The position numbers were made by a program, and so were the translations under genes. This document shows, piece after piece, positions 21,507-38,889 of a stretch of DNA of 50,398 nucleotides. The stretch comes from a virus: positions 1 to 50,398 of the IMG/VR virus record IMGVR_UViG_3300037502_002674, one strand, 5' to 3'. Below the pieces are notes generated by a model that searched no databases, was not told where the DNA came from, and saw only the letters and a program-made list of their open reading frames with translations. How positions within the stretch are numbered: position 1 is the stretch's first letter; each line of letters begins with the position of its first letter.

Positions 21507-21538
21507 TTGACAAATAACAAAATGTTACTGTATATTTG
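21507..21538 (+). promoter_or_regulatory. Promoter of small-gene cassette
   Basis: TTGA (21507-21510), 20 bases, then TATATTTG (21531-21538). The predicted transcript starts a few bases before the leader box at 21552. Confidence 0.75.
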
Positions 21539-21570
21539 CATCATCACTAACAACCACTAAAATAAGTACA

Positions 21571-21771
21571 ATGAACCTTTACCACTCTTTTTTAAAAATC
21601 TTCGCCTGGGAAAAAGCCCTTTTAGGAACACAGGTTAACCTTACAACCGCCTACAATCTCATAGAGAGGAACAAAGTGCAGATAATTAACGACCTCGCGA
21701 AAGCGCCCAAACAAAACCGCACCGAGACCGCAAAGCAGATAGCCCGCCAAATCATTACCAAATCAATTTAA
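21571..21771 (+). CDS. Hypothetical small helical protein, first cassette gene
   Basis: 66 residues, basic and mostly helical (begins MNLYHSFLKIFAWEKALLG; C-terminus RTETAKQIARQIITKSI). The consensus promoter and the leader box 9 bases before the ATG support it as a real gene. An intrinsic terminator follows, so it may be expressed strongly alone. Function unknown. Confidence 0.65.
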   Translation: MNLYHSFLKIFAWEKALLGTQVNLTTAYNLIERNKVQIINDLAKAPKQNRTETAKQIARQIITKSI

Positions 21772-21779
21772 CCACCACT

Positions 21780-21812
21780 GGCCCCGGGATCAATTCCCGG
21801 GCCACTTTTTTA
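21780..21812 (+). terminator. Intrinsic terminator
   Basis: GGCCCcGGGA / TCCCGGGCC stem with a one-base bulge and short loop, followed by ACTTTTTT, directly after the first cassette gene. Confidence 0.85.
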
Positions 21813-21830
21813 ACCACTAAATTTACCAAC

Positions 21831-21920
21831 ATGAAACCACAAAACATTATCCGCCTGATTAACGCCGCAACCCTCTTAGCAACTGCCGTTTGTTTGCTTG
21901 TAGCGTTCAACGTTATTTAA
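21831..21920 (+). CDS. 29-residue membrane peptide
   Basis: Leader box 9 bases upstream, ATG, then MKPQNIIRLINAATLL and a hydrophobic ATAVCLLVAFNVI end. It is one transmembrane segment with a basic start. The stop TAA is also the first part of the next leader box. The leader, not length, supports it as a gene. Confidence 0.55.
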   Translation: MKPQNIIRLINAATLLATAVCLLVAFNVI

Positions 21921-21940: not shown

Positions 21941-22219
21941 ATGCGTAACCTACAATTTACCGGCAAACTTCACAACAAAAATGTAACACTTGTACGTATA
22001 AGCAAAGCAGCAGCCCGCAAGCATTACGACGCAGGAGAGCAAATTTTACTTTGTCCCTGCAATCTTGTACCCCTTAGCTCCTGGAACACAGGATTTATTG
22101 TAAAACAATATTCTAAGCATCCGACGGACTTTGAAACCTATGTAAATAAATTTACTTTTTACAACTGTAACAACGAAACAGGGTACTACCTAACATTTTA
22201 CAAAATTATTAACCACTAA
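21941..22219 (+). CDS. Hypothetical cassette protein
   Basis: 92 residues from the ATG that follows the leader box (MRNLQFTGKLHNKN). An earlier alternative start would lie inside the box. CPCNLVPLS near the middle and CNNETGYY near the end. The C-terminus KIINH is encoded by the next leader box. I recall the 'WNTGFIVKQYSKHPTDFETYVNKFTFYNCNN' type from Bacteroidota phages without a function. Confidence 0.6.
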   Translation: MRNLQFTGKLHNKNVTLVRISKAAARKHYDAGEQILLCPCNLVPLSSWNTGFIVKQYSKHPTDFETYVNKFTFYNCNNETGYYLTFYKIINH

Positions 22220-22229
22220 AAAACCAACC

Positions 22230-22535
22230 ATGAAAAGAGCAGAATTAACCGCGATCGTCAAGACTGCCGGTATAAAGAAAAGCGCCGGCAGTGTAAACGC
22301 GCAGCTCATGCAAATGTACATCCGCGCAACCGGCCAAACTGATTTTAGAACGTTCCTTGACTGGCAGAAAGCCGGATATAAGGTAAAGAAAGGTGAAAAA
22401 GCTTTTGGACTATGGAGCCGCCCAGCTGCAAATTTGCAGCTCGAAAAGAACCCAAGCAGCACACCGAACGACGAAGATTACAGCAGACACTTTGTGTGTA
22501 ACGTCTTCCACCGGGGACAAGTGGAAGAGATCTAA
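22230..22535 (+). CDS. ArdC-like N-terminal domain protein
   Basis: 101 residues. FRTFLDWQKAGYKVKKGEKAFGLWSRP (about 39-65) matches the signature of the N-terminal ssDNA-binding domain of ArdC-type antirestriction and polyvalent proteins ('F.T...W...G..VkKGEkA...w.rP'). The metallopeptidase-like half of ArdC is absent. It could protect incoming DNA from restriction or bind single strands. Leader box 9 bases upstream. An 8-bp inverted repeat (TCTTCCAC/GTGGAAGA) overlaps its 3' end. Confidence 0.7.
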   Translation: MKRAELTAIVKTAGIKKSAGSVNAQLMQMYIRATGQTDFRTFLDWQKAGYKVKKGEKAFGLWSRPAANLQLEKNPSSTPNDEDYSRHFVCNVFHRGQVEEI

Positions 22536-22546
22536 TTAACCACAAC

Positions 22547-22574
22547 GCCGGCAAAGGTCAACACCTTTGCCGGC
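22547..22574 (+). terminator. Perfect 12-bp hairpin without U-tract
   Basis: GCCGGCAAAGGT / ACCTTTGCCGGC with a CAAC loop. No T-run follows, so it may stabilise or separate cistrons rather than end transcription. Confidence 0.6.
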
Positions 22575-22588
22575 TAAAACCTTAAACC

Positions 22589-22951
22589 ATGATCACAATA
22601 AAAGAAATCACAGGAGTAAAGACATTAGAGGGAGTTTACTTCCTGATATCTACTAAAATAGGAAGCAAAAAAACCACCGCTAAACCGGACAAAATTTTTA
22701 TCCGAGACAAGGTAAGAACAGAGGAAGAGCTAAAAACAGTGCTCCAGGAGGCTATTAACAGCCATTACCAAACCAACCAGCAAAGCCCGTTCAACGCAGA
22801 TATAAACCCGGATCTATTCCGGGAAAAGTTTAGCCACTTCGCAGGAATCGAAATAGCCGGAAAAAAACCGCACACAAGTTGGGCACAAATCGAACAGGCT
22901 TATTTAAAAGCATTCGAGAAAGCGGAATTCCTACAAGCAAATTTATTTTAG
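22589..22951 (+). CDS. Hypothetical protein
   Basis: 120 residues (begins MITIKEITGVKTLEG) with a beta-rich first half and a helical end (WAQIEQAYLKAFEKAEFL). It is one of few cassette genes with only a short TTAAACC leader instead of the full box. Function unknown. Confidence 0.6.
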   Translation: MITIKEITGVKTLEGVYFLISTKIGSKKTTAKPDKIFIRDKVRTEEELKTVLQEAINSHYQTNQQSPFNADINPDLFREKFSHFAGIEIAGKKPHTSWAQIEQAYLKAFEKAEFLQANLF

Positions 22952-22990: not shown

Positions 22991-23016
22991 AGTTTTTAAC
23001 CACTAAAACGCAATTC

Positions 23017-23229
23017 ATGGAAGATTCCAACGCTTTTAAAATGGCCGGCCAACTGCCGCAACCTTACAAAGAGTATGCAGAAAAAAAACTGCAAAAGCTT
23101 TTCTCATACATTGAAAACAGCGACAACCCGCAGCGCACAAAAACTTTGTGCCTGGACCCACTTGACGCACTGACAAAGGAAGAGTTTGAAAAGCTTATCA
23201 AGGAGTGCCACCAATACGAAAACCACTAA
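23017..23229 (+). CDS. Hypothetical small helical protein
   Basis: 70 residues, charged (MEDSNAFKMAGQLPQPYKEY, then LTKEEFEKLIKECHQYENH). The C-terminal NH and stop lie in the next leader box. It follows its own promoter and a perfect leader box. Function unknown. Confidence 0.6.
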   Translation: MEDSNAFKMAGQLPQPYKEYAEKKLQKLFSYIENSDNPQRTKTLCLDPLDALTKEEFEKLIKECHQYENH

Positions 23230-23241
23230 AACAAAACAATT

Positions 23242-23517
23242 ATGAGCAAATTACTAACAGCGCTCGAGCAGGAAGAGGAACGCGGAAACCTGCCGGAAGG
23301 AGCCACCGAAGTCTATAAAAAGACGCTTGAAAAATTCCCTGAAGGGAGATTTGTGAAGCCGTACAACTCCGAGAAGTCAGACGATTATACTATTTTTTCC
23401 CACTTGGAACAATTCGGACTTGTCGCAGCGCTCAGGGTTCCGGTAAATAGCGGACTACAAAAAGAAACCTATTTTGTTTACCGGCACGATTTGGAATACA
23501 AACAATACTGTATTTAA
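23242..23517 (+). CDS. Hypothetical small protein
   Basis: 91 residues (MSKLLTALEQEEERGNLPEG), acidic helical start and a beta-rich end (HLEQFGLVAALRVPVN, TYFVYRHDLEYKQY). Leader box 11 bases upstream. Function unknown. Confidence 0.6.
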   Translation: MSKLLTALEQEEERGNLPEGATEVYKKTLEKFPEGRFVKPYNSEKSDDYTIFSHLEQFGLVAALRVPVNSGLQKETYFVYRHDLEYKQYCI

Positions 23518-23538
23518 TAACCACAAAACCATAAAACA

Positions 23539-23938: not shown

Positions 23939-23946
23939 ACCATTTT

Positions 23947-24014
23947 TGCCGGCCTATGGATAGGGACAACGGTTTAAAGCCGTTGTGTTGGGTTCGATTC
24001 CCGGACGGCACCCA
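23947..24014 (+). tRNA. tRNA-like structure with anticodon TAA but no D-arm
   Basis: An acceptor TGCCGGC (23947-23953) pairs 6 of 7 with GACGGCA (24004-24010), followed by C and an encoded CCA. The anticodon-type arm ACAACGG / CCGTTGT has a 7-base loop TTTAAAG, giving anticodon TAA (Leu). The T-arm GGG TTCGATT CCC is canonical. The stretch where a D-arm belongs (about 23954-23965) does not fold into one, and a Leu tRNA should have a long variable arm. It is a degenerate tRNA or a tRNA-like processing signal. Confidence 0.5.
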
Positions 24015-24975: not shown

Positions 24976-25043
24976 TGAAAAAACAAACATTTGACCGCGC
25001 AATAGTCGCAATTATTGCGCTCTTGCTTTTCTTTATTCGTTAA
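24975..25043 (+). CDS. 22-residue membrane peptide
   Basis: The ATG overlaps the stop of the zinc-ribbon gene (TAATG). The peptide MKKQTFDRAIVAIIALLLFFIR is one transmembrane helix with basic ends. An AACCACC leader-type word and a hairpin follow. Its tight coupling is the main support. Confidence 0.45.
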   Translation: MKKQTFDRAIVAIIALLLFFIR

Positions 25044-25048
25044 CCACC

Positions 25049-25077
25049 GCCGGGGATACTTAAAAGGTATTCCCGGC
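25049..25077 (+). terminator. Strong hairpin without U-tract
   Basis: GCCGGGGATAC / GTATTCCCGGC (with G-T pairs) around a TTAAAAG loop. AAAACTATTTT follows, so termination is uncertain. Confidence 0.5.
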
Positions 25078-25377: not shown

Positions 25378-25408
25378 TTTGTTTATCAAAATAGAAAATG
25401 TATATTTG
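25378..25408 (+). promoter_or_regulatory. Consensus Bacteroidota promoter
   Basis: TTTG (25378-25381), 19 bases, TATATTTG (25401-25408). The leader-box variant AACCGCTAAA begins 10 bases later. Confidence 0.85.
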
Positions 25409-30852: not shown

Positions 30853-31633
30853 TAAAGAGCTATTCGACGCCGTCTTTGACCCAAAAGAAGGGGTGCCCAA
30901 GTTTCCGATCAGTGCCGAAGGTTGGGCAAAAAAATTAGTCAAAGACTACGACGTCAGGCAGATAAAGGAAATCCTGATGTTGCACCATTCCGGCGTACTC
31001 ACCCAAGCGGTAGCAAAAGCGCTGGAGGTTACAGAAAAAATCCCATTCGAGGTATTCTGGGAAGCCTATGCTTTTAAAAAAGGCAACAAGACGGGCACGA
31101 TGAACCAGTGGGATAAGTTGTCTTACTCCAAGCAGGAGTACATTATCAATGTGGCTCTGCCTAAGTACAATCGCTTCATTGACGTGTCCGGTATATCCAA
31201 GTGTCAGGCGATTGTGTACTTGAGACAGCGGCGCTATAATGACGAGATACCGGACAAGGATCAAATCGCTAAGTTTGCAAAGACAGTGGAGCGGTTTTTC
31301 AACGAGTATCTGGAATGGAAAAAGAAATACCCAATTTACAATCCGGAATCCTTTGATACCCTATTCCGGGCAACGGAGGCGTTCATGTACCGCTTTCCAA
31401 ATATGCAGCCTATTGACGTTTGCGGCGTGCTCAAATGGATGGTCAAGACTTGGGAAAGCCAATACCGCCATTTGATTAAGCCGTCACGGGCAATGAATAT
31501 CGGAAAGTGGCAGGGGTATTTTACTTCAGCTTCGTATGAAATTGAGATGCTAAAAAGGGATGCGCAAAGAAGGAAGGTGACGCAAGCGGAAAGGGATGTG
31601 AATAGGGAAAGGCCGAGCGAAGAAGAAGAATAG
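30836..31633 (+). CDS. Putative replication accessory / helicase-loader-like protein
   Basis: 265 residues. The central FWEAYAFKKGNKTGTMNQWDKLS followed 30-40 residues later by 'CQAIVYLRQRRYNDEIPD' matches the 'FW.aYp.k.gk..a...W.kl......at.L..rrw.de' module near the C-terminus of phage DnaD/DnaT-like and loader proteins. The helical second half and its place just before the primase-helicase support a loading or coupling role. Not a AAA+ protein: no Walker motif. Confidence 0.5.
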   Translation: MAEENNKELFDAVFDPKEGVPKFPISAEGWAKKLVKDYDVRQIKEILMLHHSGVLTQAVAKALEVTEKIPFEVFWEAYAFKKGNKTGTMNQWDKLSYSKQEYIINVALPKYNRFIDVSGISKCQAIVYLRQRRYNDEIPDKDQIAKFAKTVERFFNEYLEWKKKYPIYNPESFDTLFRATEAFMYRFPNMQPIDVCGVLKWMVKTWESQYRHLIKPSRAMNIGKWQGYFTSASYEIEMLKRDAQRRKVTQAERDVNRERPSEEEE

Positions 31634-31651
31634 CACTAAAACCAATGGCAA

Positions 31652-33628: not shown

Positions 33629-34627
33629 ATGTCGAATTTCATTATTGAAGCGCCTCAAGAGGGCGATCGCGCAGAGCGCAAAGCGAACGGGCTACCGCCG
33701 TTTAAGGTGCTCAACTACAAGTCCGGCAAGACCGGGGAGCTGTACGCAAAGACTGCGCATGAGAAGAACATCGAATACTTTGCAAACGGCGATGTGGGAT
33801 TTTCCTACTATGATAAGGAAATCGGAACCGTGAACATCAAAGAAGGCACGTTCGCTTTACTTGGCATGTTCTGGAAGCTCAACACCTATACCGGGGGCAA
33901 AAAAGACCTTGACCGCTGGTCGTCCAACATGGTGCTGGACATTAAGCGCGACGAGATGCAGATTTACCGCAATGGGGAGCCGACGAAGTTCAAGGGTATT
34001 TACAGAGATTTGAAGGATCAGAACATCTGGACAAAGGAAACAAAGATCGGCCTGTTTTGGGTTGTGATGGAACTTACAACCGAGAAGCTCTACGCCATTG
34101 AGTTGACCAATACCGTGAAGAACGGCGTAAAGCGTGCTGTCCTTAAAGCATATTCAAAGCCTATCAGTGCACAGTCCATTGAGCGCGAGGGTTTGTACGG
34201 GTTGTTTGACAGCCCCGACAACTTCCACACATTTGCACTGATGGGCTGTAATCTTGCTAACGATAAGGGTATGCCGTACAAAGGCGAGAAAGGAGAGGGC
34301 GACGGCTATTTTATGCCGCACTTCCAGTGTGGTATTTTACGCCGGGAGAAGGCGCCAGAGATCGCCGCAAAGCTATACGAAGCCCGCACAGCTTTCTTTT
34401 CCGTACTTGAGGAACGCATGGGCGCAAAAATAGAAACCGTCAAGGAATCTTTTGCCAGTCGCTCTGAAGTAGAAGAAGAAGAGAGTCTAAGCGATTTGCT
34501 AAAAAAGCACAACGTCGCACCGGGATACAATGTAGTTGCATCCGGAGGTACCGCTACTGCACATGCGATTGCCAACGCCAAGCGCGACCCGTTTGCGGAC
34601 GATGATCCGAACGATTTGCCATTCTGA
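33629..34627 (+). CDS. Putative single-strand DNA-binding protein with SSB-type acidic tail
   Basis: 332 residues. The C-terminus ends PFADDDPNDLPF, like the acidic 'DDDIPF' tail by which SSBs recruit replication partners. A Ser/Gly linker precedes it (NVVASGGTATAHA). The body (beta-rich, KIGLFWVVMELTTEKLYAIELTN) is not a recognisable OB fold by eye, so it may be a T7 gp2.5-like functional analogue. Strong promoter upstream and position after the primase-helicase fit an abundant replication protein. Confidence 0.55.
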   Translation: MSNFIIEAPQEGDRAERKANGLPPFKVLNYKSGKTGELYAKTAHEKNIEYFANGDVGFSYYDKEIGTVNIKEGTFALLGMFWKLNTYTGGKKDLDRWSSNMVLDIKRDEMQIYRNGEPTKFKGIYRDLKDQNIWTKETKIGLFWVVMELTTEKLYAIELTNTVKNGVKRAVLKAYSKPISAQSIEREGLYGLFDSPDNFHTFALMGCNLANDKGMPYKGEKGEGDGYFMPHFQCGILRREKAPEIAAKLYEARTAFFSVLEERMGAKIETVKESFASRSEVEEEESLSDLLKKHNVAPGYNVVASGGTATAHAIANAKRDPFADDDPNDLPF

Positions 34628-35891: not shown

Positions 35892-36013
35892 CGTTACTTG
35901 CATCTGCATTCTTTGTTATTGCGCTCTTTATAGCTATGACAATCATCGTGACGCGGGAAAAGAAAAGCGTCGAAAAAGATGAAAAAAATAGTGACAAAAG
36001 TTTGTACAAATAA
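35888..36013 (+). CDS. 41-residue membrane protein, holin/spanin-like position
   Basis: MTLLASAFFVIALFIAMTIIVTREKK is one transmembrane helix followed by a charged 17-residue tail. Directly coupled (ATGA) to the lysis unit behind the signal-less endolysin, it is a candidate holin or inner-membrane spanin. The size is small for either, so the role is inferred from position. Confidence 0.5.
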   Translation: MTLLASAFFVIALFIAMTIIVTREKKSVEKDEKNSDKSLYK

Positions 36014-36031
36014 AAAAATGTGCTACTTTTG
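36001..36031 (+). promoter_or_regulatory. Consensus Bacteroidota promoter of structured RNA
   Basis: TTTG (36001-36004), 19 bases, TACTTTTG (36024-36031). It overlaps the 3' end of the membrane-protein gene and drives the RNA locus. Confidence 0.85.
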
Positions 36032-36230
36032 TAATGCGGGGTGCATACCACGGGGGAGCTTCACTTTCTTAATGGTGATAGAAAGTTGGGTTTAAACGCA
36101 GCAAGCTCTTGTGTCAGTGGATACCTTGTAAAATGTTCTGTGTTGCAGAACACGGAGGGCTTTAAGGGTAGGCTTTTGGCAGTGTATGGCACGGAACATT
36201 TTTTTTGGAAAAAAGGAGCTTTCTCATAAT

Positions 36231-36245
36231 GGTTTTAGTGGTTAG
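36231..36245 (+). promoter_or_regulatory. Anti-leader-box (reverse complement of CTAACCACTAAAACC)
   Basis: Exact reverse complement of the extended leader box. Read on the minus strand it precedes an ATG at 36227 of a 21-codon frame, an alternative but weaker explanation. Confidence 0.7.
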
Positions 36246-36247
36246 TT

Positions 36248-36275
36248 GCAGGGGTTAATTGCCCCTGCCTTTTTT
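36248..36275 (+). terminator. Intrinsic terminator of the structured RNA
   Basis: GCAGGGG / CCCCTGC 7-bp stem, loop TTAATTG, then CTTTTTT. Confidence 0.88.
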
Positions 36276-36319
36276 GACGAGTACGTTTTTTTCATATATG
36301 GTTTTTAGTGTTCCGTTCC

Positions 36320-36346
36320 GCCGGGCTGAAGTGTCCCGGCTTTTTT
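36320..36346 (+). terminator. Second intrinsic terminator
   Basis: GCCGGG / CCCGGC with loop CTGAAGTGT, then TTTTTT. It is the second of three consecutive terminators between the structured RNA and tRNA-Met. Confidence 0.8.
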
Positions 36347-36390: not shown

Positions 36391-36434
36391 GCCGCCGGGT
36401 ACCTTTTGTGCATTCGCACACTCGGCGGCCTTTT
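36391..36434 (+). terminator. Third terminator-like hairpin
   Basis: GCCGCCG / CGGCGGC enclosing an inner TGTGC ATTC GCACA hairpin, then CTTTT, just before the tRNA gene. Confidence 0.65.
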
Positions 36435-36439
36435 AGAAT

Positions 36440-36511
36440 TGGGGCGTATATTAATGGTAGATTTCCGGGCTCATAACCCGGCCGGTGTAGGTTCGATTCC
36501 TGCCGCCCCGA
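36440..36511 (+). tRNA. tRNA-Met (anticodon CAT)
   Basis: The acceptor TGGGGCG pairs with CGCCCCG (first pair T-G). The anticodon arm CCGGG CTCATAA CCCGG has anticodon CAT (36472-36474). The T-arm GTAGG TTCGATT CCTGC is canonical. The D-loop AATGGTAGA is typical but its stem is weak. The 3' CCA is not encoded. A CAT anticodon could mean elongator Met or, after lysidine modification, Ile(AUA). Confidence 0.85.
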
Positions 36512-36545
36512 CAGAGTTTTTATGGGTTTAATTTGGGTGAATGAC

Positions 36546-36576
36546 GCCGCCAGTACTCCTACGCTGGCGGCTTTTT
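36546..36576 (+). terminator. Intrinsic terminator after tRNA
   Basis: GCCGCCAG / CTGGCGGC 8-bp stem, then TTTTT. It lies inside an apparent N-terminal extension of the next ORF, which argues for the later start there. Confidence 0.88.
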
Positions 36577-36807: not shown

Positions 36808-37101
36808 ATGAAAATGTATCAAGTAAACACCGGATATATGGGCACCACTGCCTACAAGATATTCGAAGTTGAGGTAGAGCGGGCAACAACCCACTTTATC
36901 ACAATCAAAGGACAGAAGCACAAGACTGCAAGGTCAAATGCTTATAGCTACTTTGCCGAAACAAGGGAGGATGCGCTCAAATGGATAGGGGAGCAGCTTA
37001 CAAGCAAGTTGAGCAGGGCAAGGCACAATAAAGAGCAGGCGGAAAAGGATATTGCCTATTACGAAAAAGAACTCAAAAACCTGAAGGATGGAAAATTCTA
37101 A
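36808..37101 (+). CDS. Hypothetical small protein
   Basis: 97 residues from the ATG after ACCAATGGC (MKMYQVNTGYMGTTAYKIFE). A beta-sheet start (VERATTHFITIKGQK) and a coiled-coil end (SRARHNKEQAEKDIAYYEKELKNL). The longer upstream frame overlaps the previous gene. Function unknown. Confidence 0.5.
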   Translation: MKMYQVNTGYMGTTAYKIFEVEVERATTHFITIKGQKHKTARSNAYSYFAETREDALKWIGEQLTSKLSRARHNKEQAEKDIAYYEKELKNLKDGKF

Positions 37102-37813
37102 TAGTGTTATACTAATAGATCATGCCGGAAGCGACAATAGTCACGCCATTGCTGCGTGGGCTTCTACTTTCTTAGATGTCAATGCGCCGATGCCGGACGA
37201 CCCCAAACAGCGTGTTGATGCACTGGTAAACAGCATTCAGTTGAACGGCAAGAAAGTACGTTCTGTAGAGGGTCTTTTGCGATGGTTAATGGATCCGTCG
37301 CACGACCCACACACATCGCCATTCCGGGCAAGCTACTTTCAATTTATTACGGTGACAGATATTGCGACGCACATTCAGTTTTTAAAGCATTCTGTGGCGA
37401 TGCTTGCGGAGAATGCGGAAAGTGCAAGATATAAGGAGTTGAAGGAGGATAAGTTTTACCTTCCGGCAGATTGGCTTAATTACGGCGACGAAGGCCAGTA
37501 TTGGCACGAACAACTATGGAAGCATACGCGACAAAGCAACAGGCTGTACCATGCCTGCCTATCGCAACTTATCAAGGCGGGAATGCCGAGGGCGCGCGCG
37601 AAAGAAACGGCCAGATATTTTAAGACGTACAATTCTCAAATCAACTCCTCAAAGATATTTAACTTTGACGGATTGATGCAGGTGTACTTTAAGAGAAGAA
37701 AAGAGAAGAACGCACAAAAAGAGATTAGCGATTTACTTGATCAAATGGTGCAATGTGTCAGGGATATTCCCGGAAACCCATTCAAGTATTCCTTAGAAGC
37801 ATTCGGGCTATGA
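37088..37813 (+). CDS. thyX: ThyX-like flavin-dependent thymidylate synthase, divergent
   Basis: 241 residues. PHTSPFRASYFQFITVTD (74-91) and the helix ending NAESARYKEL (109-118), then FYLPADW, follow the ThyX layout (H-SPF..., RHRx7S-x-RY, yiP). The C-terminal IFNFDGLMQVYFKRRKEKNAQKEI fits the substrate-binding end. The RHRx7S signature is degenerate: KHS stands where RHR is expected and the spacing differs by two. It may be an inactive or altered ThyX. It makes dTMP with FAD and folate in the normal family. Confidence 0.6.
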   Translation: MENSNSVILIDHAGSDNSHAIAAWASTFLDVNAPMPDDPKQRVDALVNSIQLNGKKVRSVEGLLRWLMDPSHDPHTSPFRASYFQFITVTDIATHIQFLKHSVAMLAENAESARYKELKEDKFYLPADWLNYGDEGQYWHEQLWKHTRQSNRLYHACLSQLIKAGMPRARAKETARYFKTYNSQINSSKIFNFDGLMQVYFKRRKEKNAQKEISDLLDQMVQCVRDIPGNPFKYSLEAFGL

Positions 37814-38073
37814 TAGATTATTTTAAGGTTGACTTTGTAACAGGCAGAATGGAGCCAGTAAAGGCAAAACCATACGGAAAAGAGGAAATACTGATTGGAA
37901 ACTCAAGATATAAGAGGGCGCCAAACATAAGAGACAGGCACGCTTCGTACCATGTTTCGTATTACAAGGCAAAAGACGCACTTATATTTTATTTGCAAAC
38001 AAAATACGATCGCCTTACTTCAGAGGCGAAAGACGTAGAGGCGCAACTTGAATTTGCGAAGTATAACTATTAA
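37810..38073 (+). CDS. Hypothetical small protein coupled to thyX
   Basis: 87 residues from the ATG overlapping the thyX stop (MIDYFKVDFVTGRMEPVKAK). Basic, with a C-terminal coiled coil (YDRLTSEAKDVEAQLEFAKY). Function unknown. Confidence 0.55.
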   Translation: MIDYFKVDFVTGRMEPVKAKPYGKEEILIGNSRYKRAPNIRDRHASYHVSYYKAKDALIFYLQTKYDRLTSEAKDVEAQLEFAKYNY

Positions 38074-38101
38074 CCATACATTTGGTTTTTGTTGGCAGTC
38101 G

Positions 38102-38130
38102 GGCGGGGCAATGTTTGTCCCGCCTTTTTT
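38102..38130 (+). terminator. Intrinsic terminator before tail module
   Basis: GGCGGG / CCCGCC stem with an 11-base loop, then TTTTTT. Confidence 0.85.
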
Positions 38131-38141
38131 GTTTATATTTG
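38114..38141 (+). promoter_or_regulatory. Promoter of tail module
   Basis: TATATTTG (38134-38141) is a perfect -7 box 19 bases before the first ring-protein ATG. The only TTTG (38114-38117) is 16 bases away, shorter than usual, and lies in the terminator loop. Confidence 0.55.
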
Positions 38142-38160
38142 CGACACATAAGCAAGTACT

Positions 38161-38889
38161 ATGGATTTACTGGAAATCCACCGCAGGATAAGGTTGGCGC
38201 TAAATAAAGACATTACGGGCTACTTGACGTCCGGGGAGATCGATATGGCGCTCGACAGGGCGCAGCTCATGGAGGTTCGTCACCTATATGGAGATGATAG
38301 GCGCCTGCCCAATAGTCCACTTGCTTATGGTATGACGTTGAAAATACACGCAGATTTAACGCCGTTTAAACGTGCTGTCGCGTTCAACTCCAATACATAC
38401 AACGAAGGCTCTAATGCAACAGGTACCGCTCCTTTAGGGATAATGGTATTCCCGGCGGATTATCTATACCCTATCGCTATTACGGTAATAGATAACGGCA
38501 TTCCGAGGACAGTGAAAATTGTCAGCGAGGATGAAATAGGCCTAAGGCTTGCAAGCACTATCAGAACGCCGACAGCATCACGTCCGGTAGCTATTATTGG
38601 AGGCGCCGATATTAACGGTACCTTTCTCGTTACAGGAAAAGGCAGGGCGCAATTATTTCCGGAGAGGGGATACAATGCAACACTTTACTATTTAATGCGC
38701 CCACAAGCGCCTATATTGAAAGGTACGGTAAATGGCAGGACGTTTACTTACGACCGGGCAAATACAATACAGCTACAATGGCCGGACGCCGCAATAGACC
38801 GCATTATCGAGCGGGCTATCGCCATCCTTGCAGAAAACTTACAAGAGGGGGAGATAGGGAATAACAACTACAATAAAGCACAGCAATGA
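38161..38889 (+). CDS. Tail-barrel ring protein-like
   Basis: 242 residues. The N-terminal helix bundle (MDLLEIHRRIRLALNKDITGYLTSGEIDMALDRAQLMEV) followed by a beta domain and LYYLMRPQAPIL fits head-completion or tail-tubular proteins of podoviruses, and the ring proteins of crAss-like tails. It is the first gene of the ATGA-coupled tail module. Assignment by pattern and order. Confidence 0.6.
   Translation: MDLLEIHRRIRLALNKDITGYLTSGEIDMALDRAQLMEVRHLYGDDRRLPNSPLAYGMTLKIHADLTPFKRAVAFNSNTYNEGSNATGTAPLGIMVFPADYLYPIAITVIDNGIPRTVKIVSEDEIGLRLASTIRTPTASRPVAIIGGADINGTFLVTGKGRAQLFPERGYNATLYYLMRPQAPILKGTVNGRTFTYDRANTIQLQWPDAAIDRIIERAIAILAENLQEGEIGNNNYNKAQQ

Follow-up and report, generated by a model that had tools for sequence, protein, structure and literature searches.

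Does the segment 36001-36275 of this genome encode a small RNA that pairs with the leaders of a whole set of early genes? The window analysed here, the whole stretch of 50,398 nt, is a 50.4-kb IMG/VR record and represents a Bacteroidota phage. It encodes an SU10-like capsid protein, a YqaJ recombinase, a primase-helicase, an integrase-like gene, an endolysin and a ThyX-like gene, and its portal is distantly related (~25% identity) to the portals of Flavobacterium and Cellulophaga phages. Small early genes form a cassette at ~21.5 to 26 kb. The RNA locus is ~10-15 kb distant from this cassette, between small genes on the lysis side and the structural operon, which starts at 38161. Overall, the analysis partly supported the interpretation of the locus as a small RNA.

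The predicted transcription unit

The preliminary description had assigned the locus its own promoter and intrinsic terminator, and both were found at the sequence level, with no conserved protein between them (Table 1). Both are strong matches, and the promoter agrees with the TTTG / TAnnTTTG consensus (sigma-ABfr type) quoted for Bacteroidota (PMC7366714), and a promoter scan revealed no convincing sigma-70 site at the locus. The segment 36001-36275 can thus be described as a promoter-to-terminator unit with a putative transcript. Folding of the RNA 36037-36282 gave -81.7 kcal/mol, compared with -66.4 ± 4.5 kcal/mol for shuffled sequences (z -3.4), and ~190 nt of structured RNA lie between the promoter and a 15-nt element complementary to gene leaders, termed here the anti-box. 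The large structured RNA is not a conserved unit and is missing in the relative G001. An open GTG frame (36041-36229, 62 aa) runs across both stem-loop domains and had no Pfam or phage match. Rfam searches at gathering and relaxed thresholds assigned the locus to no family, 6S RNA included, the gathering cut-off being reached by the tRNA alone; when named phages were searched with the locus by blastn, the matches listed were likewise to the tRNA only. The linker 36283-36300 (ACGTTTTTTTCATATA), 3' of the terminator T1, is conserved in G001, and similar T-rich CATAT stretches follow later terminators.

Table 1. Features of the RNA locus and of the leader boxes in the window
Feature	Position	Strand	Details
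Bacteroidota-type promoter	36001..36031	+	TTTG at 36001-36004, 19 nt, TACTTTTG at 36024-36031
Predicted non-coding RNA, ~240 nt	36037..36275	+	From promoter and terminator positions and fold (z -3.4)
Two adjacent stem-loop domains (~36037-36128, ~36130-36202)	36037..36202	+	From fold; found in this phage only
Anti-box GGTTTTAGTGGTTAG	36231..36245	+	CAT (36225-36227) 5' of it, complementary to ATG; conserved in G001
Intrinsic terminator T1	36248..36275	+	GCAGGGG-TTAATT-GCCCCTGC; stem 36248-36268 plus T-run
Terminator-like hairpin T2	36320..36346	+	GCCGGG...CCCGGC-TTTTTT; from sequence; counterpart in G001
Terminator-like hairpin T3	36391..36434	+	GCCGCCG...CGGCGGC-CTTTT; from sequence; counterpart in G001
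tRNA gene, anticodon CAT	36440..36512	+	ARAGORN and Rfam
Terminator T4	36546..36576	+	Terminator scan
Cassette promoter TATATTTG (21531) and first leader box (21550-21562)	21531..21571	+	ATG 21571
Leader box TTAACCACTAAAT	21810..21822	+	ATG 21831; identical in sister contig G003
Leader box TTAACCACTACAA	21917..21929	+	ATG 21941
Leader box TTAACCACTAAAA	22209..22221	+	ATG 22230; strongest predicted pairing with the full RNA, -20.9 kcal/mol
Leader box TTAACCACTAAAA	22996..23008	+	ATG 23017
Leader box AAAACCACTAAAA	23219..23231	+	ATG 23242; pairing may extend over ATTATGAG
Leader box ATAACCACAAAAC	23517..23529	+	ATG 23539
Leader box TTAACCACTTAAA	24020..24032	+	ATG 24043
Leader box TTAACCACTTTAA	24593..24605	+	ATG 24616
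Leader box TTAACCGCTAAAA	25416..25428	+	ATG 25437; own promoter at 25401
Partial box AGCACTAAAACCA before primase-helicase	31632..31644	+	ATG 31652; predicted pairing -19.9 kcal/mol

Complementarity between the anti-box and the leader boxes

The anti-box had been reported to match a repeated leader, and the 15-mer indeed matches the leader box as its exact reverse complement; this box stands at ~10 start codons of the early cassette and begins 21-24 nt upstream of the ATG. The reverse complement of the 15-mer, CTAACCACTAAAACC, has a single occurrence in the window, with 0 mismatches and on the minus strand. When the box was scanned with at most one mismatch and R permitted at one position, one site was seen on the minus strand versus 0.1 expected per 50 kb, and six were seen on the plus strand. 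The single matches listed previously were recovered at 21552 (AACCACTAAAA), at 23221-23232 (AACCACTAAAAC, 12 bases) and at 31634 (CACTAAAACCA). Two others were present with small corrections: the 13-base match placed at 22998 (TAACCACTAAAAC) lies one position off, at 22997-23009, and the match given as 11 bases at 22211 is 12 bases long and lies at 22210 (TAACCACTAAAA). The complementarity of box and anti-box is thus right and non-random.

Target prediction, proposed previously as a check, indicated preferential pairing with the box leaders, the mean being -16.6 kcal/mol compared with -7.4 ± 1.7 kcal/mol for shuffled tails (0/200). Both the site count and the shuffled-tail comparison place the complementarity of the RNA to its targets above chance. 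Much of the anti-box is predicted to be partly paired internally in the window RNA (unpaired probability 0.2-0.6 for several bases), and the anti-box is open in the G001 RNA.

Several details of the cassette were noted alongside the boxes. Boxes near 22539-22589, 25021-25074 and 21769-21831 look split by, or abut, a G+C-rich hairpin. With the hairpin in parentheses, the first reads TTAACCAC-AA-(CGCCGGCAAAGG...CCTTTGCCGGC)-TAAAACC-TTAAACC-ATG and the second TTAACCAC-(CGCCGGGGATAC...GTATTCCCGGC)-AAAAC...ATG; at the third, a hairpin terminator passes directly into TTTTTTAACCACTAAA. ARAGORN called a tRNA-Leu(TAA) at 23944-24014, which overlaps an ORF from 23956, is followed by a box leader and did not reach the Rfam gathering score. 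One box-led cassette gene (22230-22532) weakly matched the N-terminal (anti-restriction) domain of ArdC (E 8e-5).

The box extends well beyond this phage: TTAACCACTAAAA precedes open frames of at least 60 codons, with a spacing peak of 9-11 nt, in viral contigs and bacterial genomes from public collections, and its carriers among the genome matches listed were largely Bacteroidota. Counted per host genome, the exact 13-mer occurred in 7/198 Bacteroidota versus 3/199 Bacillota, a weak phylum enrichment comparable to that of the reversed-pattern control, and the spacing peak before long ORFs appears to be the firmer sign. Unrelated phage contigs carry cassettes of 3-5 box leaders in which TTAACC and AAAA are often constant and the middle varies, and the sister contig G003 retains four. 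The TTAACC-N3-AAAA box thus seems widespread among Bacteroidota phages; judged from these occurrences, it is not phage-specific and is a general leader element of Bacteroidota phages and hosts, ~10 bases before the ATG. It is best read as a translation-initiation element. In the accessible text of a study of F. johnsoniae (PMC6847099), A-rich bases at -12/-13 of the leader promote initiation, and the AAAA run of the box, at ~-12 to -9, lies near these adenines, whereas the TTAACC half has no description in that text.

The locus in related phages

No relatives were found via the protein at 33629, two were found via the protein at 38161, and four contigs via the portal, three of them being fragments without the locus. 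A TAnnTTTG promoter stands at the same place in G001 and in a third phage, L003/G002. In G001 (72% protein identity near the locus), TGCATCATTTAAGGTTTTAGCGGTTATAG and a terminator come immediately 3' of the promoter TATATTTG, giving a predicted RNA of ~53 nt. The structured ~190-nt segment is missing there, and the anti-leader tail alone, with no structure, precedes the terminator. The G001 anti-box (GGTTTTAGCGGTTA) keeps 13/15 bases, the stem of the T1 counterpart is wholly changed in sequence with its pairing kept, and the tandem terminators T1-T4 are repeated. The reduced form of the locus, with promoter, anti-box and terminator only, speaks for a small antisense RNA, and the shared promoter, anti-leader tail and terminator are the predicted anatomy of a minimal one.

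Covariation of box and anti-box, which the preliminary description had proposed to look for, was not observed. The G001 anti-box has GCGG against ACCACTA in its three boxes, leaving one central mismatch and weaker, though still preferential, predicted pairing. This is not a compensatory change, because the anti-box C faces a box A and a U at that position would bind better (predicted binding of -14.7 instead of -12.2). Nor is the anti-box distinguished by its conservation, since bases 3' of T1 are conserved too. Ensemble co-folding nevertheless gave a G001 mean of -12.2 compared with -5.1 ± 1.6 for shuffled tails (0/200); ranks 2 and 3 of ~41 are taken by two of the three box leaders, and the preference for box leaders over the other G001 leaders was equalled by 2% of shuffles. 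Pairing thus appears retained in G001 and not perfected, and common descent could account for its retention. In G001, the RNA and the primase leader share a 9-nt complement (AACCTTAAA) that differs from the 11-nt one in the window; this observation was made post hoc, is suggestive and was not counted.

In L003/G002, the promoter is followed by a different structured RNA of 333 nt (L003:5643-5975), with a closing stem and several hairpins (z -5.6) and no Rfam match. It is not alike in sequence to the RNA of the window, and no anti-box was recognisable at the corresponding place. In G002, the primase overlaps the gene upstream of it and lacks a box leader. Among 80 loci with the small gene that lies just upstream of the RNA, one (G001) has an anti-box beside that gene, and the 79 other homologues have none. 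Twenty-six box-bearing viral contigs were scanned for the anti-box; G405, G406, G427 and G428 all have multiple same-strand boxes, and none has an opposite-strand site within one mismatch. Within these scans, the anti-box is thus a feature of the lineage comprising the window and G001. Scans for the patterns anti-box plus terminator and promoter plus anti-box returned, besides G001, matches that look coding or due to chance. An intergenic match in L140 with promoter-like, anti-box and terminator parts was set aside, as it has no -33 element and no box cassette.

The surroundings of the locus also differ among the phages. The ThyX-like gene (37088-37813) has another place and the opposite orientation in G001 and G004, so the segment 36522-37813 has been rearranged. 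Closer to the structural operon, 38050-38161 looks like a late promoter region, with the promoter TACATTTG at 38077 followed at once by a terminator at 38101-38125. In all three phages, a TTTTTTGyTTAynTTTG-like block immediately precedes the first structural gene (just before position 6001 in L002 and L003).

Competing readings and the proposed role

The best single explanation is a promoter-driven small RNA that may repress translation of the early cassette. We hold it tentatively, as plausible but short of probable, and it is weakened by the absent covariation and the few relatives. The main contending reading, which we consider unlikely, is that of a cis-acting leader, in which promoter, RNA structure and four terminators would form a transcription gate before the tRNA and structural genes, with late read-through, the resemblance to the box being secondary. 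Such arrangements are familiar from lambda pR'-tR' (6S RNA) and HK022 put, where a promoter, a short structured RNA and a terminator stand upstream of late genes. The window is alike in having a promoter and then terminators ahead of late genes. T1-T4 are in tandem in both the window and G001, and the tRNA lies behind three of them; between 36024 and 38077 there is no TAnnTTTG promoter with a -33 element, so no promoter was found for the tRNA. In addition, a second promoter-terminator pair (38077-38125) lies just before the structural operon, and in the third relative a promoter and a highly structured 333-nt RNA occupy this place. The cis-acting leader is disfavoured by the G001 RNA, which has no structure before its terminator to act in cis, and by the promoter-like site that the structural operon has at its gene start in all three phages. 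Moreover, neither a Q-like antitermination protein nor a put-like RNA or site was found among the proteins (a subset of genes) and sequence scanned, and the exact anti-box would be left unexplained.

The two remaining readings fare less well. It is improbable that a structured non-coding RNA with a protein-binding or other role is the main product of a hot spot, the anti-box being incidental or a single-target antisense element: structured RNAs are present in the window and L003, but their sequences are unlike, the domain is missing in G001 and no Rfam match was obtained. Still less probable is a functional minus strand, carrying normal leaders or the remnants of an inverted one, with the plus-strand complementarity as a by-product. 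An ATG does follow the box by 5-9 nt in both phages (CTAACCACTAAAACC-ATT-ATG in the window, ATAACCGCTAAAACC-TTAA-ATG in G001). The frames that it opens, however, are unrelated and of 21 and 9 codons, that of G001 enters the plus-strand promoter, no promoter lies upstream on the minus strand, and the terminator orientation suits the plus strand.

According to the preferred small-RNA reading, 36001-36275 would be a free-standing phage RNA gene, presumably read by host RNA polymerase from the sigma-ABfr promoter and ended by the intrinsic terminator. Translation in Bacteroidota starts without Shine-Dalgarno pairing and relies on A-rich leader bases at ~-12/-13 and on low structure. As the working part of the RNA, the tail just 5' of the terminator would serve as an anti-leader, with complementarity to the leader box and a looser one to the start codon; its pairing over ~-21 to -9 would keep ribosomes off. 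Because this pairing covers the initiation region, the expected effect is repression, and translation of the early accessory cassette, perhaps with the primase-helicase, would be lowered as a set. The 190-nt structured part may contribute stability. It is possible, if rather doubtful, that the RNA recognises a shared Bacteroidota initiation box and thereby represses not just the early cassette but possibly also host genes that share this leader.

Phages are known to make antisense RNAs that inhibit translation, e.g. P22 sar (PMC12197685). P22 sar, lambda OOP and aQ resemble the predicted RNA as short promoter-to-terminator phage RNAs complementary to the start region or target mRNA (PMC12197685), but one target is described for each, whereas here the box is repeated in ~10 leaders and the RNA gene lies ~10-15 kb away. 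GibS of B. thetaiotaomicron is likewise an intergenic sRNA from the phylum with sigma-ABfr promoters (PMC7366714); in contrast, it is host-encoded with unrelated targets, and no sequence or Rfam relation to the phage RNA was found.

With a tail complementary to the shared box, the RNA could dampen ~10 early genes at once. If this is true, a single RNA acting on the start-site motif itself would control many genes. Such control would operate in a phylum that does without Shine-Dalgarno pairing and from which few phage sRNAs have been described, and it would provide a direct handle on the function of the TTAACC-N3-AAAA leader box.
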